Of a stretch of DNA of 39,021 bases, positions 3,661 to 29,773 are shown one piece after another (position 1 is the stretch's first letter; every line of letters starts with the position of its first letter). The stretch lies in contig JAJRBZ010000047.1 in the NCBI GenBank assembly GCA_028679185.1, positions 1 through 39,021 on the forward strand. The letters run 5' to 3'. The position numbers and the translations under genes are program-made. This DNA is from Methanoregula sp. Lineage in GTDB: Archaea > Halobacteriota > Methanomicrobia > Methanomicrobiales > Methanospirillaceae. Under the pieces are notes generated by a model. That model saw nothing but the letters and a program-made list of their open reading frames with translations. It was not told the DNA's origin and ran no database searches.

Positions 3661-4422
3661 TTAAGATCTTTCCTGTGCAAATATCCGGATTTTCTGAGCG
3701 AGGTTCAGCACTGCAATCCGGGCCGGACTATCAGCCGGAATTTGTGAAACCGGCGTTGCAGCAAGATCGGCGGCTTCCACCTGAGAGTCATCAGGAATTA
3801 TTGCTATCGGTATATCCTTTCCGATGTCAACCGGTGCAGTCCCTGACTTGAAACGATTAAAGACTATGTGAATTCGTTCCGGTTCAAGTCCCAGCTGCAT
3901 TGCAATCTCTTTTATACGGGCAAAAGTACGCAATCCTCTTGCACCTGGATCACTCACGATAAGCAGCATATCCGGTTTTCCTATTGTTCCCCTGCTGATA
4001 TGCTCCATACCAGCCTCCGTATCTATGACAATAAACCTGTACTCACGTTCAAGCTGGAACATACATTCCGTTAACAGGTCGTTGGCAAAACAATAACAAC
4101 CGCTTCCCTCAGGGCGTCCCATTGCAACAAGATCGAACCCATGTGCTTCGACCAGGGCCTGGCGAAACCGGAGCCGGATATAATCCTGGCGGTTCATTCC
4201 AGGTGGAATATGACGGGTGAAGGCCTCTTCACGCATACTGCCCAGTGTTTCGACAACGGTGACACCAAGTGCTTCGTGCAGGTTCGCATTCGGGTCGGCA
4301 TCGACAGCCAGAACGGGTGTTTCCCCAATGTCAATGAACGATCGGATAAGCAGGGAACTGACCGTCGTCTTCCCGGTTCCTCCTTTACCTGATAATGCAA
4401 TAGTAAATGGACGTTTTGGCAT
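3661..4422 (-). CDS. cooC: CooC/AcsF-type nickel-insertion ATPase
   Basis: This MinD-like P-loop ATPase is of the type that matures the nickel active sites of CODH and acetyl-CoA synthase. The 253-aa product has the deviant Walker A SGKGGTGKTT at residues 11-20, a switch-like VDADPNANL at 40-48, and the CxC metal-binding pair at Cys109/Cys111 (SGCYCFAND) that marks CooC, CooC-like and AcsF proteins. Dimerisation through CxC and Ni(II) binding are known for the family. It is the last gene of the acs cluster, 36 nt after the methyltransferase, which suggests its client is AcsB (A-cluster). AcsF and CooC cannot be told apart by reading alone. Confidence 0.88.
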   Translation of the reverse strand: MPKRPFTIALSGKGGTGKTTVSSLLIRSFIDIGETPVLAVDADPNANLHEALGVTVVETLGSMREEAFTRHIPPGMNRQDYIRLRFRQALVEAHGFDLVAMGRPEGSGCYCFANDLLTECMFQLEREYRFIVIDTEAGMEHISRGTIGKPDMLLIVSDPGARGLRTFARIKEIAMQLGLEPERIHIVFNRFKSGTAPVDIGKDIPIAIIPDDSQVEAADLAATPVSQIPADSPARIAVLNLAQKIRIFAQERS

Positions 4423-4458
4423 TAATCCACCTTTGATTAACCTGGTATGGGGGTACGC

Positions 4459-5493
4459 TCACTTTTCCCTGTGCCTGATTCGTCCTGAGATCTCTGCTGC
4501 TGTCTGCATAATTGCAAGGGCACCATTCCGGTCAGCAAACCGTATGCCGCAGCTGGGCGTGATAAGGGATTGTGCATCAAAAAGGTCTTCGGGCATTCGT
4601 GCACAGAGCTGAGTTCTCACAGCAAGATACCGTTGATAGAGAGATTCGGTAGTTTCAGTTGCAAAGATTTTGTATTCTGCCGGAACTATGCCCCATGCCA
4701 CAATCCCCCCTTGCTCCATGTATGCGATTATTGCATCGGCATATAACAAAAATTCCTTTGCTGTTGCATAAGCGTCAATGGATATCAATGAAGGGCGTAG
4801 ATCCAAAACAAATTCCCAGTCAGTATTCGAGCAGCAGTGGATGCCAAGCCCACCTTCAACGAGAGCAGCAATATCCTCCCACCCGGATCGTACTGTTTCC
4901 TGATCAACCGGTACTACGGACGATCCCAGCGAAGCAAGGTACGGTTCGTTTAAGACTACTACAGTTTCCGCGACACCAGTCTTTTGTCTCATTTCCATTT
5001 CGCACCAGCGTGCCTTGAGTGCGATCATTTTTGAAAGCACATCAGCAAGTTGTGCATCGTAATAGATCGGGCGTTTATTTGCATCAACTACCTGCATACC
5101 AAACGTGACCGGCCCGGTCAGCTGGCATTTCAGCACTTTTGCACAAGGGAGATTACGGGTCATCATTTCGATGAAACCGGATGCATATTCCTTGTGCAGC
5201 CCATACGGCGTAAAGTTACCTTCAAAATAATCCATATACACCTGTTCCAGGGAAGCTGTCTGGTCAGTTGTACTGTTAAAAAGAAGCCGTTCCTCCCTTA
5301 TCATCCTTCCTGGCAACTGTTCGGAATCGTTAAAGACAATACGTTCCAGCAGCCCCCTTTCAGGAAGGGTTGGCACATACGGAAACTCGGGGAATATTTC
5401 CAGAATATCCCTGCACGCTTCCCCGGGATCTGTGTGGGGAAGTGCGCCTATGCCTGTGGCCAGGGAATGTGGTGAAAGGATCATCTTTGCCAT
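4459..5493 (-). CDS. MetE-core methyltransferase, probable corrinoid-dependent methionine synthase (MesB-like)
   Basis: A 344-aa protein of the UROD/MetE-like fold that lacks the N-terminal half of classical MetE. Zinc ligands of the MetE core can be placed: H219 and C221 in GIHCCSN, D240 (ISIDAY) near the usual Glu position, and C315 in ITPSCGI. Core MetE proteins of the MesB group take methyl from the corrinoid iron-sulfur protein to make methionine, as shown for the Dehalococcoides enzyme, and their genes lie near acs genes, as here. The start at 5493 was chosen because GGAAGGGG lies 6-13 nt upstream and it begins 4 nt after the acsV stop. An earlier in-frame start would run through acsV. 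A methyltransferase feeding the corrinoid protein is an alternative. Confidence 0.75.
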   Translation of the reverse strand: MAKMILSPHSLATGIGALPHTDPGEACRDILEIFPEFPYVPTLPERGLLERIVFNDSEQLPGRMIREERLLFNSTTDQTASLEQVYMDYFEGNFTPYGLHKEYASGFIEMMTRNLPCAKVLKCQLTGPVTFGMQVVDANKRPIYYDAQLADVLSKMIALKARWCEMEMRQKTGVAETVVVLNEPYLASLGSSVVPVDQETVRSGWEDIAALVEGGLGIHCCSNTDWEFVLDLRPSLISIDAYATAKEFLLYADAIIAYMEQGGIVAWGIVPAEYKIFATETTESLYQRYLAVRTQLCARMPEDLFDAQSLITPSCGIRFADRNGALAIMQTAAEISGRIRHREK

Positions 5494-5497
5494 TGGA

Positions 5498-7399
5498 TTA
5501 CCCCTTCCTGAGCCTGCATTCATCCAAGAGTTGCTGGACCATCGGGAACAAGGTGAGATCCGTGTGCGGTAAAAATGTACTTGAGGTATACTCATCCATA
5601 AACGAAGGTTCGGCATTGAGTTCAATATACGCGATTTTTTTAGCGATATCATCGAGAGTTTTTCGCACCCCCCGGTTAATCAGCGCAAGGTTCGCACCCG
5701 TTATTGCACCATTCCCGATATTTTTTATCTGGTCCAGTCCGATCTCCGGGATTAAACCGATAATCGTCGCATTTTTCTTGTTTAAAAAATTACCAAATGC
5801 CCCGGCAAAGTAAATGGTGTTGATTTCGTGCCGGGTCACGCCCGCCTGTTTCATGAGGGTCACACAGGCAGCATGAATCGATGCCTTGCTCATGATAAGG
5901 TTCTTGATATCATTTTCCGTGATAACGATATCCTTCCCGATATCTGTTTCAGCTGCAAATGCCACTACAAACTCCGGGAAGTGAGCGCCCGTCCGGACTC
6001 TTTTATGTTCTATTTGGGTATTTATCCGTCCGGTCCTGTCAATGACACACGCGGAGATGAGTTCTGCAAGCAGGTCAATTAATCCGGACCCGGTAATGCC
6101 CCGTGGTTTGATGTTGTTTATTGTGCTGTAAGTAGGATCGAGAGTATAAGGATCGATGGTAATTTTCTCGATCGCACCCGGATTTGCCCTCATGCCAAAA
6201 AGGACTTCCCCGCCTTCGAGTGCAGGTCCTGCAGCGCCGGCGCAGGAAAACATCCATTCCTTGTTTCCGAGCACCACTTCGAAGTTTGTGCCGATATCGA
6301 TCAACAACGAGATCTCGTCATGTTCGCTCATACCGCAGGAAATGATATCAGCGATAATGTCGCCCCCGATGAAGTCGCTGACAGCAGGGAAGGCAAAGAG
6401 CCCGCAGTTCTGGTTACCGGCAATACCAATCCTGCCTGCCGCTACTGATAATGCCCGCTGGACCACCGGCACATAGGGTTCCGCGATAATATATGCCGGG
6501 TCAATCCCAAGGAGCATATGGGTCATTACCGTATTACCGGCAACCACCACTTCGTAGATATCCTCCCTGTCGATACCGGCAGAATTCGAAGCAGCGGTGA
6601 GTGCTGTATTGATGCTCTCAGCAGCGAGTGCCTGGAGTTTCACAAGCCCGTTTTTCTTCGCAAAATTCACGCGTGCAAGGATATCTTCACCACAGCTAAT
6701 CTGTTTGTTGTAATTCGAGGCAACCGCCACCACCTTCCCTCTGAGCAGATCCCATATATAGGCAACCACAGTTGTTGAACCGAGATCGATCGCTGCACCA
6801 AAGATGCGGTTTGATGTGTCATTCTCCTGGAGATCAACAAGGCGATACCCCCCGGGTACAAGAGCAATTGTTCCGGTGACTCTCCAGTTACTATGACGAA
6901 GGAGTGTCGGAATTTCGCGCATGACTTCCAGCGGAACATAGACCTTTTCAGCAACCGGACCCCCCCATTTCTGGATACCCCATAAAAGCCGGGTCAGGTC
7001 CGGTGAGGGATCGGCGAGGGTTGGTGGCTCCAGTTCGACGTAATATTTCCTGACCGATGGATGCAGCTCAATCTGGGTATCCCTGCCTTCGATGAGGATT
7101 TTTTGTTCCTGGATAAGGGTACTCTCGGGAATAAGCACCTGCAGATCGCCCTGCACGGTTGTCTCGCAGGCAAGACAGGCACCTTTATTCAGTTCATCCT
7201 CGCTAAAAAACCGCAGATATTTCTGCTGGTCAAATTCTGCTCTTCCTGATTGCAGGTAGACAATGCACTTACCGCATTTGCCCTGCCCACCGCAGACGAC
7301 ATTAATACTGATGCCAGCCCTCTGGGCAGCATCAAGAATGGTACTTCCGCGAGGCACATCGATCTTGCGATAACCGGGAAGAAAGGTTACGGTGCGCAT
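5498..7399 (-). CDS. acsV: corrinoid Fe-S protein reductive activator (AcsV/RACo-like ASKHA ferredoxin)
   Basis: The 633-aa protein starts with a [2Fe-2S] plant-type ferredoxin domain, with ligands visible as C36, C42, C45 and C75 or C78 (CGGQGKCGKC; GACLACET). A linker follows, then an ASKHA-type ATPase (AAIDLGSTTVVAYIWDLL, about residue 206) and Gly-rich phosphate-binding loops near the C-terminus (GAFGNFL, GAITGANLALI). Family members use ATP to return Co(II) of the corrinoid protein to the active Co(I) state after accidental oxidation. Its position between acsC and the methyltransferase gene supports AcsCD as its substrate. The 127-nt gap to acsC could hold a promoter, but I see no convincing TATA box. 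Confidence 0.9.
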   Translation of the reverse strand: MRTVTFLPGYRKIDVPRGSTILDAAQRAGISINVVCGGQGKCGKCIVYLQSGRAEFDQQKYLRFFSEDELNKGACLACETTVQGDLQVLIPESTLIQEQKILIEGRDTQIELHPSVRKYYVELEPPTLADPSPDLTRLLWGIQKWGGPVAEKVYVPLEVMREIPTLLRHSNWRVTGTIALVPGGYRLVDLQENDTSNRIFGAAIDLGSTTVVAYIWDLLRGKVVAVASNYNKQISCGEDILARVNFAKKNGLVKLQALAAESINTALTAASNSAGIDREDIYEVVVAGNTVMTHMLLGIDPAYIIAEPYVPVVQRALSVAAGRIGIAGNQNCGLFAFPAVSDFIGGDIIADIISCGMSEHDEISLLIDIGTNFEVVLGNKEWMFSCAGAAGPALEGGEVLFGMRANPGAIEKITIDPYTLDPTYSTINNIKPRGITGSGLIDLLAELISACVIDRTGRINTQIEHKRVRTGAHFPEFVVAFAAETDIGKDIVITENDIKNLIMSKASIHAACVTLMKQAGVTRHEINTIYFAGAFGNFLNKKNATIIGLIPEIGLDQIKNIGNGAITGANLALINRGVRKTLDDIAKKIAYIELNAEPSFMDEYTSSTFLPHTDLTLFPMVQQLLDECRLRKG

Positions 7400-7526
7400 G
7401 GTGATCTGTCCTTAATACTACCATTTGGGAGAGAGATAAGAAATATGCTCTGGTAATTATCCCCGTTCTTTTTCGTTAACAACGGAAAAAATCATGAGAA
7501 CACCATACCACCACAGAATATCAGCC

Positions 7527-8864
7527 TTACTGTTTCTTCCATTCCTCTTGCAGGTATTTCCCGATTTCTGCGGCATCCCGGGGCCCGACCATCACTTTCC
7601 AGCCGGTCACTTCTTCAATCCTTCCTGACAGGGGTGCGGAATATCCCGGAATAATCAGTGTTTTGTGCGACACTTCATTCTCTACATCAAATTTTTTTAT
7701 CGAATCATGCACCAGAGTTTCATTGAGTTTTCCTGCAGCTACCGAAGTCAGCACCGACAGCCCTTCAGTATCGACAATCAGAAGGAAACAGGGAATGCGG
7801 GAGGACTCCAGGTACCCTTCAAGAGTAAAGAATGTGAGTGAAAAGTTCACCGTCATGAGTACCGGCGCATCTTTTCCCGGGGCTCCGACACGGTACAATC
7901 CCGGATTCATCTGGATTGGTTTCTGGGGATCAGTATAAATGTTCTGCCGGAGCGTGAGGGCAGCCTTTGCAGACGCTACCGGAAGCGGAGGCGTGATGAT
8001 TATGGATGCATATTTGATAATACCCAGTGCAATTGCAGCATCCTGCAGCTGGGAATTTGCAGCATCAAAATAAACAGGATACCCCAGATCCGGAACCGCT
8101 CTCGTGATAGCGAGTTGCCGTACTGCAGTAGACAGCATTATATAATCACCAAGCGATTGAGGGCAAAGATCCATCACCAGTTTCTTTACACCTTCTTCAG
8201 AACAGGATTTGGCAAGAACGATAAACTCCTCAAGACCATAGGCTTTGATTACCAAAGGACAATTATGTTTTTTGACGATTGCACACATTTCCCTGAAATT
8301 TTCCATCGTAGCTGCATGGATCAGGGGCTGGTAACTTCCGACCTGGACAAGAGCCTCATTAAACGCTTCAAAATTCTTTGATATCAACACAAGGGGGAGA
8401 TCTGCATTTTCCTCGACCGTGGCAACCGCTTGTGCAAACTTCTCTGCAGAACCGCTTGAATTTTCAATCGCAATACCGTTAAACCGCAGATCAGTGCCGA
8501 TGCGGGTAAATATTTCATCCCTGACCCGTTTGGTTACAGAAGCAATCTCTTCATCTGACTGGGTATCCAGAACCTTGAACAGAATTCCCGGTGGATGATA
8601 GAATGTTTTATCATGCCGGTAAAGAACAAATTCTTCACCGACGGCAAAAGAACGTTCCCCCACGCCAATTTTTATCAGACGGATTGGAGGGCGGGTTGTA
8701 GCACCCAGCAGAGATTTTGCACTATCATCCAGATGCGGGCAGAGATCAACATCCGCTTTTCCGCTTGCGAGTTTCATGGCAAAGGTAAGGCATGTTGGAT
8801 CACCGCATTCCTTGCAGTTCTTTTTTGGAAGGATTTTGTAAATATCCAGTGCTTTGAGTGCCAT
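7527..8864 (-). CDS. acsC: corrinoid iron-sulfur protein large (gamma) subunit
   Basis: The 445-aa subunit carries the [4Fe-4S] cluster and the cobamide of the corrinoid iron-sulfur protein, the methyl carrier of the Wood-Ljungdahl pathway. The N-terminal cluster ligands C17, C20, C25 and C42 are present (KKNCKECGDPTC; VDLCPHL). A TIM-barrel-like middle follows, then a C-terminal B12-binding domain (LIIPGYSAPLSGRIEEVTGW). It starts 2 nt after the acsD stop with an AGAGGTGA ribosome binding site inside the acsD end, so translation is probably coupled. Length fits both bacterial AcsC and archaeal CdhE. Confidence 0.93.
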   Translation of the reverse strand: MALKALDIYKILPKKNCKECGDPTCLTFAMKLASGKADVDLCPHLDDSAKSLLGATTRPPIRLIKIGVGERSFAVGEEFVLYRHDKTFYHPPGILFKVLDTQSDEEIASVTKRVRDEIFTRIGTDLRFNGIAIENSSGSAEKFAQAVATVEENADLPLVLISKNFEAFNEALVQVGSYQPLIHAATMENFREMCAIVKKHNCPLVIKAYGLEEFIVLAKSCSEEGVKKLVMDLCPQSLGDYIMLSTAVRQLAITRAVPDLGYPVYFDAANSQLQDAAIALGIIKYASIIITPPLPVASAKAALTLRQNIYTDPQKPIQMNPGLYRVGAPGKDAPVLMTVNFSLTFFTLEGYLESSRIPCFLLIVDTEGLSVLTSVAAGKLNETLVHDSIKKFDVENEVSHKTLIIPGYSAPLSGRIEEVTGWKVMVGPRDAAEIGKYLQEEWKKQ

Positions 8865-8866
8865 GG

Positions 8867-9823
8867 TTATTTCACCTCTGAAAAATCCGCACTCTTTTTA
8901 AAGCTGGCAAATGCATTTTTAAGTAATCCGACCGTCTTTGGGTGGCGGACACTGATAATCTCGGCACCGGCGACTGCTGCGGCAATACCAGTATAGTATT
9001 CCCACTGTACGGCCATATCATCCTGCTGCTCCGGGTCTGCTTCCCTTACTTCTTTAATATTCAGTGAATCAATTGCAGAGGAGATCATCGGCATGCCAAG
9101 ATCGGCATCACCCTTTAATGCAGAAAACCGGATTCGTTCCATTGCAGAATAGGAATACTCAAACCCATAACCAAGAGCACCGGTATAGGGATCGATTATG
9201 ATATGATCCCGTTGCACACCTATCTCCCGTAAGAGGATATTGAGTTGTTTTGCAAGGTTGACATCAATTGGAGACTGGGCGATAAGTGAGTGATTGTAAG
9301 CAATAGCTGATGCAGCAATACTACGGTACCTGCTTGCCTCTGCAGTTCCAAGGAGAAGTTTCTCTCCCTGTGCAACCTCACCACATTTCTGGAAAACGTC
9401 GCTATCGATCCGTGGCTCGTTACTACCCTCAATAATTAAAGGGAGCGCAGTTGCTTGAAGAACGGATTCCACCGTTTTTCCGATGGAAACAATATCGGAA
9501 AAATTTCGCTCACGGGTACTTGTCAGGTACAGACGAACCAGATCAGCACCATAGACTGTTTCAGCAGTCTTTGCCCAGTCATCTGCAGTCGTGACAAGAT
9601 CACCACAGAAATGCCGGACGATAGGTGACCAGTATTCCGGGTTATCGCAGATCTCTAAAGCAACAAGAGGTGAGGATGATGGCGGGGTGGTGTCAAGAAA
9701 CGGAAGTGTGGTTCCGCCACCGATATGATAGGCCATTTTTCTCGTCCCCCCCTCTGCCTTCGTAGCTCCGAGAGTAACCGGCCCAATCACACCTGTCCAG
9801 CCAAAATGAAGGTCATATCCCAT
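8867..9823 (-). CDS. acsD: corrinoid iron-sulfur protein small (delta) subunit, bacterial-type
   Basis: The 318-aa protein partners AcsC and forms part of the cap over the cobamide. It aligns by eye with Moorella AcsD along its length: VTLGATKAEGGTRK, LLLGTAEASRYRSI, SPIDVNLAKQLNILL, HIIIDPYTGALGYGFEYS, MERIRFSALKGD. At 318 aa it matches bacterial AcsD (about 310-323) rather than the longer archaeal CdhD (over 400). The gene lies 9 nt after acsB with GAGGT upstream of ATG 9823. Confidence 0.93.
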   Translation of the reverse strand: MGYDLHFGWTGVIGPVTLGATKAEGGTRKMAYHIGGGTTLPFLDTTPPSSSPLVALEICDNPEYWSPIVRHFCGDLVTTADDWAKTAETVYGADLVRLYLTSTRERNFSDIVSIGKTVESVLQATALPLIIEGSNEPRIDSDVFQKCGEVAQGEKLLLGTAEASRYRSIAASAIAYNHSLIAQSPIDVNLAKQLNILLREIGVQRDHIIIDPYTGALGYGFEYSYSAMERIRFSALKGDADLGMPMISSAIDSLNIKEVREADPEQQDDMAVQWEYYTGIAAAVAGAEIISVRHPKTVGLLKNAFASFKKSADFSEVK

Positions 9824-9832
9824 ACCGGTACC

Positions 9833-11884
9833 TCACACGAGTGGTTTCATGGTCAGGGCCGGATGTTTTACGGAGTCAAGATAGGAGATAAGGTCTTCAA
9901 TAGTCGTTGCTTTGGTTTCATCCGCAATTTTTTCAAAGAGATCTGACTTATTTTGATCGCTAAGTTTTTTCGCCAGCCGGGTCTTCAGTTCTTCTTTGAG
10001 CTGTGACGGCATCCAGACCAATCGTTCAATTCCCCCTTCCCCTTGCAGGAACCGGTCAGACAGAATATAGTTTTTCGATATACCGATAAATCCCGGGGTC
10101 TGTGAACCACCACCGATAGTTCCGGCAAGCGTGGAGAACGTCATTCCCGATGGTGTGATACCTTTGAATTCACGGTTCACAATCATGATCCCGTTCACTT
10201 CGGGGAGCATGAGAGCTATACACTCAAAACAACCACAGCAGGTCATCGGATATTCCATCAGGCTATAGAGAGAGCATCTGTCTATCTCGCCATGACTTGC
10301 CTTTTTCACAAATTTATTGACGCCTTCATATTCCCCATTCTGGGCGTTTATGAATGCTCCCTTTTCTATCGGCTGGTTAGCACCGGAGGGAGCTATTTCA
10401 TACGCAATTTTTCCATCCAGCCAGCTGATAGCTCCGCAGAGGGCGGGATGTTCTGGTGTTATTACACAGACATGGTTTGGGGCAAAGGTCTGGCAGAGTG
10501 TGCAGGAATAATACGTATTCACATCTGAGTCCCGCATACCCCTGATACGTGAATCCCGTTCTTCGTATACCTTTTCTGCATCCTTTTTTGCTGATAGTAC
10601 CTTTGCTTCATCAGTAATCAGCGTGACAGATACTGCATCCAGCAGCTGGGGAAAATCCATACGGAACTTACTTGCCAGGAGCTTTCCTATATGTTCAATT
10701 TTTACCCCTTTTGCTACAACCTCTTTTGAGATCCGTATCCAGACGATATCCCTTTGGGCAACATGCCAGGACCCTTCCCCATAATTGACGAAATTATGGA
10801 TCCGTCGCTCGAGAACCGGCTCATATTCTTTTTTCATCATCTTGCCGGCGACTTTTATGATAATTCCAAGCGGGTATGCACTCCCCTCTTTCATCGCCTC
10901 TATCTCTGGTCCGATAACGGTTATCTGCCCGTCCTTAATTTCTTCAGCATTCACCATTTGCAATAATTCAAAAGCGGGTGTTCTTCCCCCACCAAACTCA
11001 ACATACATCTCCTCTTTCCGGATGCTCTTTCCTTCAAATGCAGGAGAACACCCCATCGGTATGGGGATAGCTGTGACGTTCACACGTATTCCTTTTATCT
11101 CCATTCCGCGACGCACTACCTCATCAGGTAATGCTGATATCCAGTCTCCACCCTCATAATCCCCAAGGGATAGGATGGGAAACCCAAGTACTCGCATACC
11201 ATCAACAAAAGCTATTTCCTGGTCAGAAAGCCCGGGAAAAACAATTACGATCGCCCGTGCCCGTTCTGCAGCATACGTTAAAAGACGGTGTATATCACCT
11301 GGAGTAACTCCGCCGAACATCATCGCAACTCTTGCGATGATATCGACAAAATGAATCCCATATGCTGGTTTCGAGCCCAGAGGGATAAGACGGTATTCAA
11401 GCCCGACTTTCACTCCTGCCCGGGATAGTGATGCTATGATGTCTCCGGCAAGGAATGTAAGCATGTATTTTTCCTGCAATTCGCGGCATAAAGCAGCTGC
11501 ACGGTCTGCGCTTTGAGGAGTGCCAACAACAAGAGCAAGTCCAAGGATACTGCCATCGACCAGTGAGTATCCAAGTTTCCTGATAACAGTATCATCGATA
11601 AAACCGGTATAGGGGGGCGGTTCCCTGCCGTCCGCTGCTGTTTTTTCTGCAGTAATACACTCCAGTGCAACCATGGGGTTGCTGTTTGTCCGGTTGAATA
11701 CATCCAGTGCAGTCTTCTGGTCATGTACCGCTATTCCGGTAAGAGCAAAAGAAATCGGAAGGTGATATGCGGTTTCATCATAAGAAATGGTGTGATTTAT
11801 GGCTTTTATCATCATTTTCAGATGATTTTCACCATTGCTTTTTGCTGATTTTACGTCTGTCACAGGTTTATTCACTCCGATCAT
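9833..11884 (-). CDS. acsB: acetyl-CoA synthase, full-length bacterial-type AcsB
   Basis: AcsB joins a methyl group from the corrinoid protein, CO and CoA into acetyl-CoA at the Ni-Ni-[4Fe-4S] A-cluster. All A-cluster ligands are present: C461, C464, C473, C483 and the C550-G551-C552 motif. The 683-aa protein includes the N-terminal Rossmann-like domain (about residues 30-300, with YTGFIDD, MMFGGVTPG and CSPAFEGKSIRK) that docks to CODH in bacteria. Archaeal CdhC (about 470 aa) lacks that domain. The C-terminus HPALTMKPLV matches Moorella closely. Residue 549 is Cys where Moorella has Ser (TCCGCF versus TSCGCF). The start at 11884 lacks a strong ribosome binding site; M24 is an alternative. 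Confidence 0.95.
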   Translation of the reverse strand: MIGVNKPVTDVKSAKSNGENHLKMMIKAINHTISYDETAYHLPISFALTGIAVHDQKTALDVFNRTNSNPMVALECITAEKTAADGREPPPYTGFIDDTVIRKLGYSLVDGSILGLALVVGTPQSADRAAALCRELQEKYMLTFLAGDIIASLSRAGVKVGLEYRLIPLGSKPAYGIHFVDIIARVAMMFGGVTPGDIHRLLTYAAERARAIVIVFPGLSDQEIAFVDGMRVLGFPILSLGDYEGGDWISALPDEVVRRGMEIKGIRVNVTAIPIPMGCSPAFEGKSIRKEEMYVEFGGGRTPAFELLQMVNAEEIKDGQITVIGPEIEAMKEGSAYPLGIIIKVAGKMMKKEYEPVLERRIHNFVNYGEGSWHVAQRDIVWIRISKEVVAKGVKIEHIGKLLASKFRMDFPQLLDAVSVTLITDEAKVLSAKKDAEKVYEERDSRIRGMRDSDVNTYYSCTLCQTFAPNHVCVITPEHPALCGAISWLDGKIAYEIAPSGANQPIEKGAFINAQNGEYEGVNKFVKKASHGEIDRCSLYSLMEYPMTCCGCFECIALMLPEVNGIMIVNREFKGITPSGMTFSTLAGTIGGGSQTPGFIGISKNYILSDRFLQGEGGIERLVWMPSQLKEELKTRLAKKLSDQNKSDLFEKIADETKATTIEDLISYLDSVKHPALTMKPLV

Positions 11885-12257: not shown

Positions 12258-13796
12258 TTGAAAAAATTCTCTTTTATCGCTCATATGCCAAATACTCCGG
12301 GATCCCTCCATAAAGCAGCGGAGATTATTTTAAAATATGAGGGTAATATCAACCGCATTCAATATGACCGGCGTATAGATCCGGCAACTGTTTTTTATGA
12401 AGTTACAGCTTCAGATGATGCATTCGGTAAAATTACCCATGATCTTGAGCGGATAGGCTATCTTCAGACTTCATTAAAACCTTTAAATTTTTTAAGGATC
12501 TGTGTTTATCTTCCTCACCAGCCCGGTGCACTTTATGAATTCCTGAACTTTACTACAACCGTCGGAGCTAATATCGCCTTTATTGATTTTGATGAAAAGG
12601 GGAGACACCCCGACCGTCTCATTGTCAGCCTTAATCTCGAACAGAGTTCCGTTGTTGACCAGCTTTTGGACCAGCTGAAGTCACGCTACCGTCTTGAAAT
12701 ACTTGAATACGATACTACGGGAAAACATCTCGATGATACTGTCTTTTACGTCAGGTATGCACAGGCAATACGTGAAATTATCGGTGAATCCGAGGAGAAT
12801 TTTTTACTGTCATTCCTTGCTGATATAAATCACATCGTGCAGGAACTAATGGACAGGGGAAATGATCCACGGAAAGTATTTGAGAGCGTTCTTTTGACTG
12901 GTCAGACACTTTCAGCAACAACAAAAGCCAGTTTCTATGCAGATATCCAGCAATTCCGGATAACCGGGCATTTAATCCTTTTTTGCTTCCAGGCACCATG
13001 CGGCGGGAATATTTTTTTGATTTCCACTGACAATGAGAAAGTCCTGATTGATACCGGTTACGGTATATATCATCCTGATGTAATGGTAATGCTTTCGCGG
13101 TATGGTTTGGGCGATTTACACCGGTTATCACGAATTATCGTTACCCATGCAGATGCGGATCATTGTGGTGCTGCAGGGTATTTTTCCGTCCCGGTTTTTA
13201 TGCATGAAGGAACACTTGCGATTATCAAAAGAAACAACCGTGCGTTTGGTTCCCGCAGAGAACACTCTGTTCTCGAAGAGTTCTATACCAAGATGATCAA
13301 CCTTTTCTCTAAGTTTAATTCCCCGGAAAAGGTACGATGTTTCAATAATCAGCCGGTATCGGTCCGGGGAATTTTTCCGGTACTGGGTTATGTAACTATC
13401 GGGGATCTTGAGCTCGAAATCCTTGAAGGCTTAGGTGGGCATACGTATGGCCAGATTTATCTGTATTCCCAGGAACATGGACTGATATTTACCGCGGACT
13501 CTGTAATCAACTTTGCAAGTCTAACCAGAGAGCGTGCTGACTACAGCTCACTTGCTGCTTTTCTTGTAACTTCAGTAAACGTGGACAGCGATCTGGCAAA
13601 AAAAGAACGAAAAGCACTGATCGAGCTCGCTTCAGAAACTGATAAAAAGCTTATAACAACAGGTAAGAAATGCCTTATCTGCGGGGGTCATGGTGCCGTA
13701 TCGGTTCTTGAAGGTAACCAGCTTGTTGCTTATGGAAACATTGAGCGATATTTACCAACAGTTCATGACTCAGTGGTAAAGAAACCTGTAGTGTGA
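12258..13796 (+). CDS. ACT-ACT-metallo-beta-lactamase fusion protein
   Basis: The 512-aa protein starts with two ACT-like ligand-binding domains (residues 1-75, FIAHMPNTPGSLHKAAEI; residues 78-150, ICVYLPHQPGALYEFLNF). A helical linker follows, and from about 235 a metallo-beta-lactamase-fold domain. Metal ligands include THADADHCGAAG (the HxDxDH variant of HxHxDH), GGHTYGQIYLY and a late His in CGGHGAVSVLEG. ACT domains usually bind amino acids, so the hydrolase may be amino-acid regulated; the substrate is unknown. TTG start 12258 is chosen because the first ACT strand (KKFSFIAHM) needs it and the ribosome binding site and TATA box fit; the next ATG would cut that strand. Confidence 0.8.
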   Translation: MKKFSFIAHMPNTPGSLHKAAEIILKYEGNINRIQYDRRIDPATVFYEVTASDDAFGKITHDLERIGYLQTSLKPLNFLRICVYLPHQPGALYEFLNFTTTVGANIAFIDFDEKGRHPDRLIVSLNLEQSSVVDQLLDQLKSRYRLEILEYDTTGKHLDDTVFYVRYAQAIREIIGESEENFLLSFLADINHIVQELMDRGNDPRKVFESVLLTGQTLSATTKASFYADIQQFRITGHLILFCFQAPCGGNIFLISTDNEKVLIDTGYGIYHPDVMVMLSRYGLGDLHRLSRIIVTHADADHCGAAGYFSVPVFMHEGTLAIIKRNNRAFGSRREHSVLEEFYTKMINLFSKFNSPEKVRCFNNQPVSVRGIFPVLGYVTIGDLELEILEGLGGHTYGQIYLYSQEHGLIFTADSVINFASLTRERADYSSLAAFLVTSVNVDSDLAKKERKALIELASETDKKLITTGKKCLICGGHGAVSVLEGNQLVAYGNIERYLPTVHDSVVKKPVV

Positions 13797-18478: not shown

Positions 18479-21133
18479 ATGAAATTTTGTAAATTAAATA
18501 GCATCTTCATAATAATACTTATTGAGATATTCCTGATGTCTATAGTCGGAAGTGCATCAGCATATCAACTCTATCTCAGTTGTCCCGGATTAGTACAGGT
18601 TGGTACCCCATTAGAATGCTCAATTGACAGCAATTTTCCGGCCGGGACAACCTTTGATGTTGTTATGTACCCGCCAGGATACACTACCATTCCACTCCTT
18701 AGCCAGACCGTTACAATTCAGGACAGTCATGCTACCCGGTATCAGATATTTGATACCACGGGATTATCCGGTGGGCAATACAGAGTAGAGATCCAGTTCA
18801 TCGGTTCTGATGAGGACAGGCTTTCATCTGACTCCGTTACCCTGCAATTGCCCAGACTTCTTGAGTCTCCAATTGCCAACTTTTCTTGCCTCCCTAGAAC
18901 CGGTGTTGCTCCTTTGACAGTACAATTCTCGGACAATTCGACCGGTTCCCCCACAGGCTGGGCATGGTTTTTCGGTGACGAGAATTACACACAGCCTTGG
19001 ACGCTCATGAATGCAAGTGCCGGGTGGTCGAGGAGATATACCCATAGCAGTTTGGTGATGCCGGATGGGAGCATCGTACTAATGGGCGGTTTTGACTGGG
19101 ATTTTAAGAATGACGTGTGGCGGTCGACGGATGAAGGTGCCACGTGGACTGAGATAAATAGTAGCGCCGGGTGGTCAGGTAGACTTCCTACCAGCGTGGT
19201 GATGCCGGATGGCAGTATTGTGCTGATGGGAGGAGGAACATACAGCAATTATAAAAATGACACATGGAGGTCGATAGATAACGGCGCAACGTGGACGCTC
19301 ATGAATGCAAGTGGCGGGTGGTCGGCAAGAATTGGTCATAGCAGTGTAGTGATGCCGGATGGCAGCATCTTACTGATAGGCGGAATAGGTAACAAAGGCG
19401 CAGCGAATGATCTCGTAATGAATGATGTATGGCGGTCAATAGATAACGGCGCAACGTGGATGCTGGTAAATGCGAGTGCCGGATGGTCAGGAAGATCTTT
19501 CCACACTAGTGTTGTAATGGCAGACGGCAGCATTGTTCTGATTGGCGGTAGGGACGATGACATGAACAGTAGAAATGATGTGTGGCGATCAATAGATAAC
19601 GGCGCAACGTGGATGCTGGTAAATGAGAGTGCCGGGTTGTCTCCGAGATGGGGTTACAACGGAGTAGTGATGCCGGACGACAGCATCGTTCTCTTGGGGG
19701 GCACGAATGGTGGCAGCACATATTACAATGACATCTGGCGGTCGACGGATGAAGGTGCAACGTGGGCTTATATGACCGCGACTGTCGGGTGGTCGGCAAG
19801 AGTGGGGTCTAGCAGCGTCGCGATGCCGGATGGCAGCATCGTGCTGATTGGCGGTTGGGACGCCATCTCCAATCTGAAGAATGACGTATGGCGGTTCATG
19901 CCTGCCGGTTCATCGGCACAGAATCCGTCCCATACCTATACCTCGCCTGGAACCTATCAGGTATCGTTGCAGGTATACAATGCCGATGGATACAACAGTA
20001 CGCGGAAGGCAGGGTATATCAACGTAGATGTGAATAACGGAATAGCTATCTTCCGACCATCAACCGGTTACTGGTACTTTGACTACAACGTCGATGGAAC
20101 TGTCGCTAAATCCTTTAGATACGGGGGAAGTACTGACCAGATCATTGTTGGTGACTGGGATGGAGACGGGCTGGATGGGATCGCAATTTTCCGACCTTCT
20201 ACCGGCAACTGGTATTTTGATAATAATCTCGATGGTATAGTGGATCAGTCCTTCAGATATGGTGGAGTTGGCGACCAGATCATTAAAGGAAACTGGGAAG
20301 GAACAAATGACGGGATAGCGATCTTCAGACCTTCGACTGGATATTGGTATTTTGACTACACTCTCGATGGTGTAGTCGATAAATCCTTCAGATACGGTGG
20401 CAGTACTGACCAGATCATTAAAGGGGACTGGGACGGTGACGGGAAAGAGGGGATAGCGATCTTCCGTCCTTCAACCGGGTACTGGTATTTTGATAATAAT
20501 CTCGATGGTATAGTGAATCAGTCCTTCAGATATGGTGAGAGTACTGACCGGATCATAGTCGGAAACTGGCAGGGAACCCAAGACGGAATCGCAATCTTCC
20601 GTCCTTCAACCGGGTACTGGTACTTTGATTACACTCTCGATGGTGTAGTCGATAAATCCTTCAGATACGGTGGCAGTACTGACCAGATCATTAAAGGGGA
20701 CTGGGACGGTGACGGGAAAGATGGGATAGCGATCTTCCGTCCTTCAACCGGGTACTGGTATTTCGATTATGCTCTCGATGGTGTGGTCGATAAATCCTTT
20801 AGGTACGGAGGTAGTAATGACTGGATCATAGTCGGAAATTGGGTACCCCAGCCAACAAAAACAATCACATTTACTCGGGATTTGACCGTTATCCCCAGCA
20901 CAACGGTATATATCCCACTTTTGGGTAAAGTAATCTGGAAGAACGACGATCCCTTAAAGCCCCACGGTATTGCAGCTATTGACGCACAGGGAGCAAAATA
21001 CTTTGGGGGGCTGACTGGTGTTCAAATCCCTTATAAAAAGACCTTCGAGGTTACCTTTGACACAATCGGTACATTCGACTACAAGACAACGTTCCAGCCG
21101 GAAATCACGGGACGAGTATTCGTAACTCAGTAA
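18479..21133 (+). CDS. secreted repeat protein: split PKD, kelch-like repeats, six 45-residue repeats, cupredoxin-like tail
   Basis: The 884-aa protein has an N-terminal signal peptide (residues 1-28, ending SASA) and an immunoglobulin-like region. Next come the first half of a PKD domain (PLTVQFSDNSTGSPTGWAWF), six kelch/BNR-like repeats marked by MPDGSIVLMGG and NDVWRSIDNGATW, and then the second half of the same PKD domain (NPSHTYTSPGTYQVSLQVYN). Six 45-46-residue repeats follow, each with GIAIFRPSTGYWYFD and FRYGGSTDQII, some with a Ca-binding-like DWDGDG. The last ~90 residues resemble a cupredoxin, but the usual Cys and second His of the copper site are absent (DYKTTFQPE). No C-terminal membrane anchor is seen. 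Probably exported; role unknown. It is the only intact gene between the element's inverted repeats. Confidence 0.8.
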   Translation: MKFCKLNSIFIIILIEIFLMSIVGSASAYQLYLSCPGLVQVGTPLECSIDSNFPAGTTFDVVMYPPGYTTIPLLSQTVTIQDSHATRYQIFDTTGLSGGQYRVEIQFIGSDEDRLSSDSVTLQLPRLLESPIANFSCLPRTGVAPLTVQFSDNSTGSPTGWAWFFGDENYTQPWTLMNASAGWSRRYTHSSLVMPDGSIVLMGGFDWDFKNDVWRSTDEGATWTEINSSAGWSGRLPTSVVMPDGSIVLMGGGTYSNYKNDTWRSIDNGATWTLMNASGGWSARIGHSSVVMPDGSILLIGGIGNKGAANDLVMNDVWRSIDNGATWMLVNASAGWSGRSFHTSVVMADGSIVLIGGRDDDMNSRNDVWRSIDNGATWMLVNESAGLSPRWGYNGVVMPDDSIVLLGGTNGGSTYYNDIWRSTDEGATWAYMTATVGWSARVGSSSVAMPDGSIVLIGGWDAISNLKNDVWRFMPAGSSAQNPSHTYTSPGTYQVSLQVYNADGYNSTRKAGYINVDVNNGIAIFRPSTGYWYFDYNVDGTVAKSFRYGGSTDQIIVGDWDGDGLDGIAIFRPSTGNWYFDNNLDGIVDQSFRYGGVGDQIIKGNWEGTNDGIAIFRPSTGYWYFDYTLDGVVDKSFRYGGSTDQIIKGDWDGDGKEGIAIFRPSTGYWYFDNNLDGIVNQSFRYGESTDRIIVGNWQGTQDGIAIFRPSTGYWYFDYTLDGVVDKSFRYGGSTDQIIKGDWDGDGKDGIAIFRPSTGYWYFDYALDGVVDKSFRYGGSNDWIIVGNWVPQPTKTITFTRDLTVIPSTTVYIPLLGKVIWKNDDPLKPHGIAAIDAQGAKYFGGLTGVQIPYKKTFEVTFDTIGTFDYKTTFQPEITGRVFVTQ
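20358..20783 (+). repeat. 273-bp internal tandem duplication
   Basis: The DNA from 20358 to about 20510 recurs almost base for base at 20631-20783. The 273-nt period equals 91 residues, or two protein repeats. Near-identity at synonymous sites points to recent duplication or gene conversion. Confidence 0.75.
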
Positions 21134-25078: not shown

Positions 25079-26593
25079 ATGAAGCGCAGCGAGCATGTCG
25101 CTATGATAGCGCATAATATAGGTGTCACGTTTAATTTCCTTGGCATGGCTTCACTGCTGCCTTTTCTTGTCCTTGTAATTTTTCGGGAATGGGATATGCT
25201 TCTTCCCATGGCCTCCGCCCCGGTGATGTTCACCATATTAGGGTATCTCCTCTCCCGTGTTCCCTACACAGATCTCACGCCAACACTTTCCGACTCACTT
25301 GTTGTGGTAGCCCTTTCCTGGTTTGCGATTGCTCTAGTCGGGGCACTCCCGTTTGTTTTTGGGCTCCACATATCGTATACCGACAGCGTTTTTGAAGCGA
25401 TGTCCGGCTGGACCGGCACTGGTTTTACGATGATAACAACCCTCGATACAACACCCAACACCCTGTTATTCTGGCGTTCGTTTACTCAGTGGATCGGCGG
25501 GATTGGTATCATAGCGTTTCGCATCTCGCTCAGCAGGAAGACGAGTGCCACACTTTTCCAGCTCTACCGTTCTGAGGGCAGAACGGAAGCGCTGATGCCC
25601 AGCGTGGTTTCTACCGGGAGAAGGATGTGGCAGATCTATCTTTTTTTAACCTTCATGTTCACAGGAATGGTCATGCTGTCGGGAACTGCACTGTGGGACT
25701 CACTGAACCTTGTCATGGTCGCTCTTGCAACCGGCGGATTTTCGATTCATGATGCCGGTATGATGTATTATAACAACCCGATGCTTGAAATGCTCCTGAT
25801 CCCTGTTATGCTTGCCGGTGCACTGCCGTTCAAGATCTATTTTCTGCTTTATCGTGGGAATATTAAAGGAATGTTTAGGGACCAGGTCTTGCAGGTGCTT
25901 CTCCTTATCGCGGCAGTCGGTTCAGCGATTACATCTCTTGATCTTTTTATATTCAACAATCTCTCTCTTGAGCAGGCAATCCGTGAAGGAACGTTCTGCG
26001 CAATATCAGGGTTCACCACAACCGGTCTTCAGAATTCTAATCCTCATCTCTGGGCAGCAATCCCCATCGCGGTCGTCACGATGATGATGCTGATTGGCGG
26101 TGCAGCCGGGAGCACTGCAGGTGGTATCAAGGTGAACCGTGTCATGCTTGCGTATGATGGCGTGAAATGGTGGTTGAAACGCTTTTTTGTATCAAGCCGG
26201 GTGCTCGTCCCGTTGAGGTTCGAGGGGCGTACATTTTCGCGGGAGATCGCCGACCTTGAGATCTCCAAAAATATGGTTGTCATCATGCTGTATATCGTCA
26301 CAATCTTTTTAAGTACCGTTATACTGATGCATCTCTACATTACGATGTTCGGGCTGAATGAGATTGTCTTTGAGGAAGTGTCGGCAATCAGCAACGTGGG
26401 ACTTGGCCTTGGCTACATCACGGCAGCAAGCCCATTCGCTGTTAAATGGATCTTTATTATTCTCATGTGGCTCGGAAGACTGGAGATTGTTCCGGTGATT
26501 ATTCTTGTTACGGGCGTCTTCAAAGGGATTCAGGACGATTTGACAAAACAGAAACCGGCACCCAAGGTATATAATCTGCAGGAACGCTATTAG
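25079..26593 (+). CDS. trkH: Trk/Ktr-type potassium transporter membrane subunit
   Basis: The 504-aa protein has the four pore-loop repeats of TrkH/KtrB, with selectivity-filter glycines in SGWTGTGFTMIT, ALATGGFSIHD, SGFTTTGLQ and ISNVGLGLG. About ten transmembrane helices and the conserved QWIGGIGII and GGAAGSTAGGIK are also present. TrkH channels need a cytoplasmic nucleotide-binding TrkA subunit; none is in this window, so it must be elsewhere if the system works. It is divergent from the AI-2E/kup pair. Confidence 0.92.
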   Translation: MKRSEHVAMIAHNIGVTFNFLGMASLLPFLVLVIFREWDMLLPMASAPVMFTILGYLLSRVPYTDLTPTLSDSLVVVALSWFAIALVGALPFVFGLHISYTDSVFEAMSGWTGTGFTMITTLDTTPNTLLFWRSFTQWIGGIGIIAFRISLSRKTSATLFQLYRSEGRTEALMPSVVSTGRRMWQIYLFLTFMFTGMVMLSGTALWDSLNLVMVALATGGFSIHDAGMMYYNNPMLEMLLIPVMLAGALPFKIYFLLYRGNIKGMFRDQVLQVLLLIAAVGSAITSLDLFIFNNLSLEQAIREGTFCAISGFTTTGLQNSNPHLWAAIPIAVVTMMMLIGGAAGSTAGGIKVNRVMLAYDGVKWWLKRFFVSSRVLVPLRFEGRTFSREIADLEISKNMVVIMLYIVTIFLSTVILMHLYITMFGLNEIVFEEVSAISNVGLGLGYITAASPFAVKWIFIILMWLGRLEIVPVIILVTGVFKGIQDDLTKQKPAPKVYNLQERY

Positions 26594-29500
26594 AGAAGAT
26601 ACATTATCCGATCACGCCGCCGCTTCCTGCCATACAGGAATACAGCAACTGCAAGGATTACCAGCCCTGCTGAAAGCAACGCATTTTTTACTGCCATATC
26701 AATGATCCAGAGAATCATTCCCGAGAAGGTGGACATTGCTGTTGGAGGCGGCGGAGCGACAACGCTGGTGGGTATCTGGGTCGGTATATTGGTTACTGTA
26801 CGATTCTGTACCGGAGCAACTTCTTTGGAAAATAACGCAAAAAAGCAGAAATGCGATATCTGTGCAGAGACAATACCGGTGTTCGGGTTGTAACTGGTAG
26901 GTACATCCTGCCATGTGTTGTCATTTCGATCATATGTTTTTACCATAAAGTCCTGTCCCCAGTGTGCCTGAGGGACTATGAAATCGAGAGAAACTGATGG
27001 TGAGAACGTACAGGTATCCGGCTGCAGATCGTATGTCTCCCCTAGAGGAGTAAACGGGGAACCTGCTGGTAAAGCAGGTACGGTATCCTGAGGAATTGCC
27101 TTGATTGTTACAGATGAGAGCGGATTTCCTTCACTGTCCAGTGCTAAAACTCCTTCCCCGATGCTGACAGTAGCGATCCCGTCAGTTGACTGCAGTATGG
27201 TCTTCTGAGTTATGACTCCCTGGGCGTTTGAGTAGAGTTTGCCGGTTTTTCCCGGATCGGGGAGTGAGGGAGTTGTAATCACAGGTGCCGGTGTAGTCAG
27301 GACAACAACCGGTCCTCCTTCTGATCCACTTCCTGATCCCGTATGAGAGGCAACTGAGAGGGTAAGGAGCTGTATGGGGTTACCGTTACCGGAGACTTGT
27401 GCAAGTCCAAAAGTCGAGAAATAAAGTGGTACTTCAGCAGTAAAAAAATCCATGTCCCCCGCCCGGTTGCGGGTTGGTTTAAGACCGATACCCATGGTGT
27501 TGCCCAGAGAATCGTAACCGGTTCCGATGATTATAACAGGAGTGGTTGGTGTTTCCTGAATTGAATCGTACCATAGTGAACTTATGCTCATGTTTATTGT
27601 AGCAGTTCCCTGGCCAAATAGGGGATTTTTTGTAATGCGAGCGGTAAACGGGATGGTACTGACCGTAGTAGACCCGGTCGGAGGGATCAGGGAGGCAAAA
27701 TACTCAAAGGTAGCAATATCAGCGGGGATCGCACCTTCCCATAGCTCACTGGTGATGGTGGATCGGGCAGGGTAATTGGTATCGCTGAATTTATAATTCA
27801 CCCCAATCTGATGGGTTAAGTTGGTCGCCGTCAGGTCCCTTGTATGGAAATAAACTGTGGAAAAGTTGCCGATAATTGTCTGGTTTGCCAGTTCATTAAA
27901 ACCTGTTTCATCGGATGAAACAAAGGAAATATTCTGCCAGCCATATTCTTCAGGAGGTTCGGATGCAAAGAAAGACCAGTCGGCATCTGCACTATAGGAA
28001 CTCAGGAGTGAACCGTTGTAAACAACAAATGGTTTACGATATCTTTGATCAGTAGTTATTCCCTTTATAGGAAGTACTGAGATCTCCGATGCACCGATCA
28101 GGGTCCGGATATAATCAGTCTGCGTTTTTGTATTGGTAATGCCACTGCCGAACGTATTGTTGACGGTGAGCGATACGGTATACGAGAATCCTGGTTGGTT
28201 ATAGACATGACTCGGATTCTGCTCGGTTGAAGTGGTGCCATCACCAAAATCCCAGATCCAGCTTTTTGGCCCTCCACATGAGGTGTCCGTGAAGTGGACT
28301 GTGAGTGGAGTGAACCCATAGAGTGGTGCTGCGGAAAAATCGGCTTCCGGTGGAGCGTCAATATATATTTTATACTTACAGATATCCGGCGAAATATTCC
28401 TGCAGAGTGCATTCCCCACAGTAAGTTTCACCGGATAAATACCGGCACTGACAAACTGGTGGGTCACCGGAACGACCGGATTAAGGCTCCAGGGAGAACC
28501 ATCACTGAAATTCCATGAGTGGTAGAGGACCGGAGTTCCTTGTGTAGTTTCTGTAAAGGTTACCGATAGCCCGGGTGATCCGGAAGCAGGTGTTGCCGAA
28601 AAACCTGCAGCCGGGCATGCAACAGCAGGGCCAAGCGTGAACAGGAAAATATCCTGGTCGCTTTGACCAGCCCGGGAATCTGCCCATACAATCCGGGAGT
28701 CGTATATGTCAGGATTCATCTGCGATCCGGACAGGTTGTTGGGTGCGACCCATGTCTCAGTTCCGGTCAGGAGATCATAGAGATAGATATCAGGCAATGC
28801 AACAGGACGCCGATAATCTTCAACAACAACTTTGTTATCATTGATCGAGGGGTGAAGCTGATCGAATGGGGTTGCAGTCAGCGGTGTCAGGCGGGTTATT
28901 GCACCCTTATCGAATACATGAATATGGATTTTGTCATCTGTAAGATTGGTTGCTTCCCAGACAATTTTTTCGCCGTAGTTATGGGGGAAAGTTTCCTGGT
29001 AAAATTGTTCAGAGACAGGAACAGCGGTATCAGTACTCAGGTTATACAGCCAGATATCAGAGGGGGAATTAAGGGCATTACCGGTCCAGTTTTCGTAAAC
29101 AATGTAATCCTGATAGATTTCCGGATGCTTCTGGTCTCCATCACCATACACAATGAGTTCCGGTTGTAATCCGCTGTTTCTTACAACAGAAATATCCCAG
29201 TTACTGTTGGTTACATTGTAGTCCTGCCAGACAATTGTGTTCCCGGAAATCTTGGGATAATTGTATTCATAATTCATCGAATCATAGTAACCATTATACT
29301 CGTTCCGGGTAAGGGAAGTTGTGTCATAGTTGACGATCTTTGAATCGCTCCCCAAAAAGTCGGGCTCTGCCCAGACGACAGTATTCCCGTAAATTGACGG
29401 ATGATATTGATAATTTGGAGAAGGATTAAGCGGATATTCCTCTCCCGATGCAAGGTCGTAGAGATAAATCTGGCTTATGAATGAATCCCGGATGTCCTCC

Positions 29501-29661: not shown

Positions 29662-29773
29662 TTTTGCCGGTTCACTCCTCCCGTTAACGACAGAATGCAG
29701 CTTCATATTTTCCATCTCGACCGCGGAACTACGTTACCTCTGCATCATTGCTGCTGGTCATGCAATTATCTGA

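Follow-up and report, generated by a model that had tools for sequence, protein, structure and literature searches.

Bacterial-type acetyl-CoA synthase clusters in Methanomicrobiales keep MesB as their constant partner and are probably no longer tied to carbon monoxide dehydrogenase

Acetyl-CoA synthase (ACS) is described in acetogens as part of a complex with carbon monoxide dehydrogenase (CODH), made of AcsABCDE in Moorella, Carboxydothermus and Clostridium autoethanogenum, and in archaea as part of the acetyl-CoA decarbonylase/synthase (ACDS) complex, CdhABCDE. Sections of one study describe how, in ACS of acetogens, the A1 domain consists of a helical bundle followed by a Rossmann fold, holds most of the gas channel and forms the CO alcove, and they state that this domain is missing in all methanogens (PMC11474084). 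Dehalococcoides mccartyi has AcsB, AcsCD and core-MetE/MesB, with no CODH and no AcsE. A CODH-less AcsB that feeds core-MetE is discussed there in parts of two papers (PMC7005905, PMC7857596), and the first of them proposes that acetyl-CoA is cleaved by AcsB, with release of CO and transfer of the methyl group to core-MetE. For methanogens, mesB has been linked to acsC and acsD in operons (Price et al. 2021, PMC7857596); the sections of that paper covered here treat acsBCD and cdhCED as equivalent, and we did not find in them a bacterial-type AcsB, CODH-independence or MesB residue losses. Here we analyze an entire contig of Methanoregula sp. (the window, contig C80, 39,021 bases), which belongs to a genome of 2.10 Mb in 104 contigs that is 97.26% complete. 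It carries a bacterial-type ACS cluster in which AcsB and the corrinoid iron-sulfur protein (CoFeSP) stand together with MesB and without AcsE, as in the published descriptions of D. mccartyi. On balance, we suggest that this cluster encodes an ACS module that has become independent of CODH and would work as proposed for D. mccartyi.

The six genes lie on the minus strand in the order acsB-acsD-acsC-acsV-mesB-cooC/acsF, where a first-pass annotation of the letters had placed them. The first, acsB (9833..11884), encodes a bacterial-type ACS whose 683 aa include the N-terminal A1 domain (NF040764, 921.8 bits, cut-off 800; PF19436; PF03598). The small and large subunits of CoFeSP follow. These are acsD (8867..9823, 318 aa; PF03599, 129.5 bits; NF003376, 342.6 bits, cut-off 280), which reaches 180.4 bits with the WLP_AcsD model and stays below its cut-off of 430, and acsC (7527..8864, 445 aa; NF003195, 550.1 bits, cut-off 306; PF04060 Fe-S). 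The annotation was right to call AcsD bacterial in length, since its 318 aa compare with 401-464 aa in the open frames of nine archaeal CdhD. The fourth gene, acsV (5498..7399, 633 aa), encodes a RACo-type reductive activator of CoFeSP (PF14574, PF17651, PF17650 and Fer2 above their cut-offs; NF040756, 560.8 bits, below the cut-off of 800). It is followed by mesB (4459..5493), a core MetE-type methyltransferase assigned from its Zn ligands, its MetE fold and its co-occurrence with acsB. The last gene (3661..4422; PF01656) encodes a CooC/AcsF-type (CooC/MinD-like) P-loop ATPase, which is probably the Ni insertase for AcsB. The sixth gene to be assigned, the MesB-type open reading frame (ORF) at 4459-5652, had been left unnamed in the annotation. 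This ORF is overlong and overlaps acsV, so the true start of mesB is likely the Met codon at 5493 just past the end of acsV, which gives 344 aa. Neither a CODH catalytic subunit nor AcsE is present among the cluster genes, again as annotated. The annotation had placed the methyl source elsewhere or in a non-standard pathway. AcsE is indeed absent, but MesB within the cluster had been overlooked and is the likely explanation.

The distribution of the cluster was examined in 135 Methanomicrobiales genomes, each at least 90% complete. AcsB is present in 63 of them and in five of the six families (none in f6); in Methanoregula metagenome-assembled genomes (MAGs) it is 85-87% identical to that of the window, which places the host among the methanogens of this order. 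MesB occurs in these 63 genomes and in no others (63/63 vs 0/72), with a Fisher p of 4.5e-40 that is formal only, the genomes being related. CdhC and CdhA share the same 41 genomes, while CooS is above cut-off in 83 and fragmentary in 3. Among the AcsB genomes, 31 have CdhA and CdhC as well (15 of these with CooS and 2 with a CooS fragment), 21 have CooS only, one has a CooS fragment only and ten have no Ni-CODH (G015, G039, G088, G090, G095, G101, G118, G120, G122 and G148). When the CODH models were run against these ten, seven gave zero matches, and G039, G095 and G118 gave only the short hybrid-cluster type; G039 is a single contig of 1,980,381 bases and is 99% complete. The cooC/acsF gene adjoins the acs genes in all ten of their clusters, one of which is cut by a contig end. 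CooS as a dedicated partner of AcsB is rejected by the distribution. In the 94 genomes without CdhA, CooS occurs in 22/32 with AcsB vs 37/62 without (Fisher p=0.50), and own-type CooS (at least 57% identity) in 15/32 vs 24/62, with G103 untyped, so there is no statistical association. Thus, it is MesB and not CODH that accompanies AcsB throughout, and we therefore prefer a reversible, CODH-independent ACS/CoFeSP/MesB module.

The first-pass annotation had called for a search of the rest of the genome. The host CODH is a monofunctional CooS with its own CooC next to it, off the acs contig (contig C60; TIGR01702, 673.2 bits vs a cut-off of 478), and this CooS is the only Prismane/CODH protein genome-wide. 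Its best solved relative is the CODH of Desulfovibrio vulgaris (727.6 bits, vs 460.3 bits for Moorella AcsA). The only CdhC-domain protein genome-wide is the AcsB of the window. No CdhA was found in the host genome (best stray match, 25.7 bits), the CdhD-family matches in the search for CdhD/E are only acsC, acsD and an HgcA, and in the search for AcsE the sole pterin-binding protein is a dihydropteroate synthase (DHPS) beside FolD. With neither archaeal-type CdhA nor CdhC found, this genome either lost ACDS or was always without it, and it holds no complete archaeal CODH/ACS operon that would make the acs genes a redundant copy. The expectation that CO comes from elsewhere therefore holds in part, here through CooS and CooC, but it does not extend to the 10/63 cluster-bearing relatives without Ni-CODH. 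Those ten are like D. mccartyi in this respect, whereas the window genome, with its CooS, is unlike it.

AcsB is like acetogen CODH/ACS in its NF040764 score above cut-off, A-cluster, A1-A2-A3 domains, CoFeSP pair and AcsV; unlike it, the system is without AcsA and AcsE, has a short helical part of A1 and carries Tyr for the gate Ile146/149. With archaeal ACDS it shares a catalytic core homologous to CdhC (42-47% identity), whereas CdhC is without the A1 domain and CdhD is longer than AcsD. We aligned AcsB after dropping rows of at most 60% identity, with fewer than 600 residues or with stops, which left 168 rows, reduced to 94 distinct sequences by identity over the last 640 residues. The six cysteines of the A-cluster region (Cys 461/464/473/483/550/552 in the window protein) are present in 168/168 rows, the ten CODH-less genomes included. 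The predicted structure (predicted local distance difference test, pLDDT, 80) matches 6ytt_A with Z 47.5 and a root-mean-square deviation (rmsd) of 18.7 over 644 residues. The Rossmann domain of A1 is present, and model residues 9-269 match the N-domain of C. autoethanogenum ACS (9g03_D; Z 29.0, rmsd 2.6, 253 residues). The published generalization that all methanogens are without the bacterial N-terminal domain is contradicted by these 63/135 genomes. In the parts of the literature on ACS/CODH in archaea that we covered, the bacterial-type AcsB of Methanomicrobiales was not found, though the main evolutionary study may already mention it.

The first-pass annotation had AcsB keeping its N-terminal CODH-docking domain. 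This is correct for the Rossmann part, but the helical CODH_A_N subdomain (PF18537) is truncated clade-wide and reaches 20.1 bits in the window vs a cut-off of 32.2. Acetoanaerobium reaches 94.9 bits and a CODH-AcsB fusion 84.2, and three Methanomicrobiales reach 20.1, 30.6 and 23.1. At E<=1e-10, PF18537 matches 2 of 22 members (two fusions and 20 Methanomicrobiales), the best E coming from a fusion. The helical-bundle stretch has 48 residues in the window AcsB, 44-49 in 93/94 distinct sequences and 36 in one, and it has 65-68 in the comparison set of three bacteria and the fusion. Judging by its name and position, PF18537 would be the CODH-binding part. A second change lies in the CO alcove, whose residues were numbered through an alignment to a Carboxydothermus fragment and the residue numbers of the papers. 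Four alcove residues (G145, V149, F229 and F512 in Moorella) are kept in 94/94 or 168/168 rows, and these four of the five are also kept in the AcsB of the ten CODH-less clusters. The fifth, I146 in Moorella and I149 in Carboxydothermus, is Tyr in 94/94 distinct Methanomicrobiales AcsB, and I or V in the three bacteria and the fusion. In the window this gate/alcove motif is G-Y-S-L-V (residues 105-109; 11558..11572, minus strand), with Tyr106 replacing Ile/Val. Sections of a recent study report Ile, Leu, Val and Thr at the gate site, term the helix gating and ascribe strain in the Ni-acetyl state to Ile149 (PMC12289521).

For MesB, neither Pfam nor NCBIfam gave a match to the window protein. 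Its model (pLDDT 93.4) is a MetE-type barrel close to 3rpd_B (Z 26.4, rmsd 2.7, 280 residues). It also matches a Methanosarcina mazei methyltransferase, 4ay7_A, which we take to be MtaA (Z 20.0, rmsd 3.2, 280 residues). The Zn ligands of the window MesB are H272, C274, D293 and C368 (P0002 numbering), the H, C, D, C zinc set described for MesB in parts of two papers (PMC7857596, PMC7005905). We excluded MesB rows with stops or above 520 aa and reduced the remaining 76 to 56 by identity over the last 300 residues. The ligands H, C and D are found in 56/56 rows and the last C in 55/55, with one gap. The equivalent of Ser433 is Ser in 10/56 and that of Asp599 is Asp in 6/56; the window protein has Ala and Asn. 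In MesA of the order both are kept in 10/10 rows, which were chosen by a pattern that includes [DN]EP and GS, one row from each of ten loci. The host encodes a MesA-type protein on contig C79. Unlike D. mccartyi, it thus has a second methionine synthase, and its MesB differs in active-site residues. It also differs from D. mccartyi in being a methanogen that uses methyl-tetrahydromethanopterin (methyl-H4MPT).

In the module that we propose, AcsB would bear a Ni-Ni-[4Fe-4S] A-cluster, with nickel loaded by the CooC/AcsF ATPase. AcsCD would serve as the corrinoid methyl carrier, re-reduced by AcsV, and MesB would be the zinc methyltransferase that takes the methyl group from AcsCD (or delivers it there). 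Acetyl-CoA would be interconverted with CoA, free CO and methyl-CoFeSP, and the methyl group would then pass to a zinc-bound thiol via MesB. In this genome the unlinked CooS could oxidize or supply the free CO; other genomes would have CdhA for this step, or no encoded enzyme. Strains without CODH could also use AcsB synthetically, on environmental CO. We infer the reaction direction, the free-CO step and the thiol acceptor. Several points weigh against this proposal. Its support comes from genome sequences, and since the genomes are related, our counts are not independent events. Some Ni-CODH is encoded in 53/63 AcsB genomes (CdhA in 31, CooS or a fragment in 22), and two of 20 loci (L250, L253) have CooS some 2 kb outside the cluster, which suggests that CODH-made CO is used at least there. 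From these two observations, AcsB may draw on CODH-made CO in many strains, including that of the window. In addition, a MesA-type methionine synthase (PF01717) is present in 132/135 genomes, and MesB has for the most part lost the residues supposed to bind homocysteine, with the Ser433 and Asp599 equivalents both kept in 5/56.

The same CooS genes, both the pair with CooC in this genome and those adjoining the cluster in the two loci, would also suit ordinary carbon assimilation with scattered parts, as would the wide occurrence of some Ni-CODH. The unlinked CooS would make CO from CO2, CoFeSP would be methylated straight from methyl-H4MPT, AcsB would make acetyl-CoA and MesB would only tap methyl-CoFeSP for methionine. 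To our knowledge, archaeal CODH/ACS needs no AcsE, which also fits. We regard this reading as possible but rather doubtful, because ten AcsB genomes have no Ni-CODH, CODH and AcsB are statistically unassociated, the docking subdomain is truncated and the gate residue altered clade-wide, and 31 genomes already have the archaeal complex subunits CdhA and CdhC. A role of MesB as sole methionine synthase is rejected, since the presence of the PF01717 protein in nearly every genome means that MesB is not needed for methionine. Because the order already has MesA and the homocysteine residues of MesB are mostly lost, its acceptor may be another thiol; coenzyme M is a bold guess. MesB would then no longer be a methionine synthase, and would tie acetyl-CoA cleavage to methanogenesis as a methyl-CoFeSP:thiol methyltransferase. 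The invariant Zn ligands, the redundancy with MesA and the resemblance to 4ay7_A agree with this idea, but MetE structures score clearly higher and two lost residues do not demonstrate a new substrate, so we consider it unlikely.

In the AcsB tree, the Methanomicrobiales sequences form one group (94/95), and together with bacterial AcsB and a CODH-AcsB fusion of family f7 they are separated from archaeal CdhC at 100/100. This supports AcsB as bacterial in type. For AcsC and for AcsD, the sequences of the order group together at 100/100 and apart from archaeal CdhE and CdhD, so none of the three subunits falls within archaeal CdhCDE in the phylogeny that the first-pass annotation had proposed. 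Nor do AcsC and AcsD of the order cluster with the four bacterial sequences; in their trees the four groups form a near-star in which long branches come together. Clades of AcsB within the order broadly follow host families and the cluster is order-wide, which makes any transfer old and not recent. The earlier suggestion of horizontal transfer thus agrees with the type of AcsB, but not as a recent event, and neither AcsC nor AcsD is nested in the bacterial sequences. From the trees, the acs cluster would have been acquired at or before the radiation of the order and then lost in places, with possible transfers inside the order. The bacterial sequences compared in the search for a donor were PDB fragments and those of an Acetoanaerobium record (L213; 2.6 Mb, filed as a plasmid). 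A scan of genome contigs with very specific patterns kept 80 loci, all labelled Methanomicrobiales or, for three MAGs, just Euryarchaeota. A scan of viral contigs for homologues gave nothing, and plasmids yielded a single AcsB record and, on a Desulfosarcina plasmid, a remote homologue of MesB (25.9%). In a sample of 391 genomes of the phylum, among the matches listed, which extend to an E of around 6e-113, by which point all that appeared were core-domain matches near 45%, the other bacterial-type AcsB are only those of f7, fused to CODH. These natural archaeal CODH-ACS fusions (L225:6600-10766, L226 and L227, from G170, G152 and G161, same phylum) are single frames of 1,375-1,407 aa with a CooS-type CODH fused to AcsB (L225: TIGR01702, 728.9 bits; NF040764, 950.7 bits). 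Then come acsD and acsC; the opposite strand carries cooC and acsV.

All six genes stand in the same order in a first set of 20 relatives and in 20 further loci (L237-L256). The exceptions are contig ends that cut L038, L053, L242 and L256, and broken frames in L051 and L055. Two variants were seen: in L053 (G031) some 3 kb of additional sequence separate acsC from acsV, and in L251 (G142) no cooC was found after mesB. Genes for an ACT and metallo-beta-lactamase protein, a hexuloisomerase, an aminotransferase and an M42 peptidase stand beside the cluster in 12/20 relatives of the first set, one-contig genomes included. The other eight comprise six from other families and two (L052, L055) whose contigs end soon after acsB. 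Though the gene type is bacterial, as it would be if a bacterial contig had entered an archaeal bin, such an assembly or binning artefact is so improbable as to be negligible. Contamination is refuted by synteny in one-contig genomes (L042-L046), and close homologues occur in many independent genomes, several of them closed. A decaying relic of an acquired pathway with no current function is also very improbable, even with the few broken frames in draft genomes. The ratio of nonsynonymous to synonymous substitution rates (dN/dS) of acsB is 0.036-0.151 in seven pairs (0.151 and 0.081 in the two pairs with both genomes CODH-less), and that of mesB is 0.091-0.172 in four pairs, with a fifth saturated and giving no ratio. 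Thus, acsB is under purifying selection. Such selection on acsB and mesB speaks against a relic, which we reject on dN/dS, and the A-cluster Cys and the gene order are kept across the order.

Other genes were noted in the window and its surroundings. The ACT-like and metallo-beta-lactamase protein (12258-13796), divergent from acsB, adjoins the cluster only in Methanoregula-type genomes and is a possible sensor. Large Kelch/PKD and PKD-repeat surface-type proteins (18479-21133 and 26590-29715) flank Kup- and TrkH-type K+ transporters. In Methanoregula relatives, the archaeal Cdh cluster has its own AcsV-like activator beside CdhC-D-E (L228-L231, L233; 35-38% to the window AcsV). On host contig C60 (L004:3598-18329), efflux genes of ArsP and Acr3 type and an ABC transporter precede CooS-CooC, and ThiF, LarE, FdhD and NadA genes come after it. 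Contig C26 carries the mercury methylation gene hgcA (L279:1342-2723; NF040863, 442.2 bits, cut-off 275), then a 110-aa ferredoxin-like hgcB candidate. On contig C100 (L280), folP (DHPS) lies beside folD-like and glyA-like genes, the latter two assigned by eye, which are folate-type C1 genes in a methanogen.

The finding is wider than the first-pass annotation had it, since a remodelled ACS, with the function that we infer, occurs across the whole order and not in a single odd genome. Methanomicrobiales represent a natural experiment in ACS cut loose from CODH. Since the docking helices are shortened and the gate residue is changed in the same lineage, the debated role of the gate and the favoured direction of the reaction become testable with natural variants. 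The finding also bears on acetate and CO handling by hydrogenotrophic methanogens. In a bolder and, in our estimate, improbable version, nearly half of the order would possess a free-standing acetyl-CoA lyase/synthase remodelled for no docked CODH (short helices, Tyr gate), with MesB as a methyl-CoFeSP:thiol transferase, possibly to coenzyme M. If this were true, acetyl-CoA carbon could reach methane, or methyl-coenzyme M carbon could reach acetyl-CoA, without Mtr or CODH.

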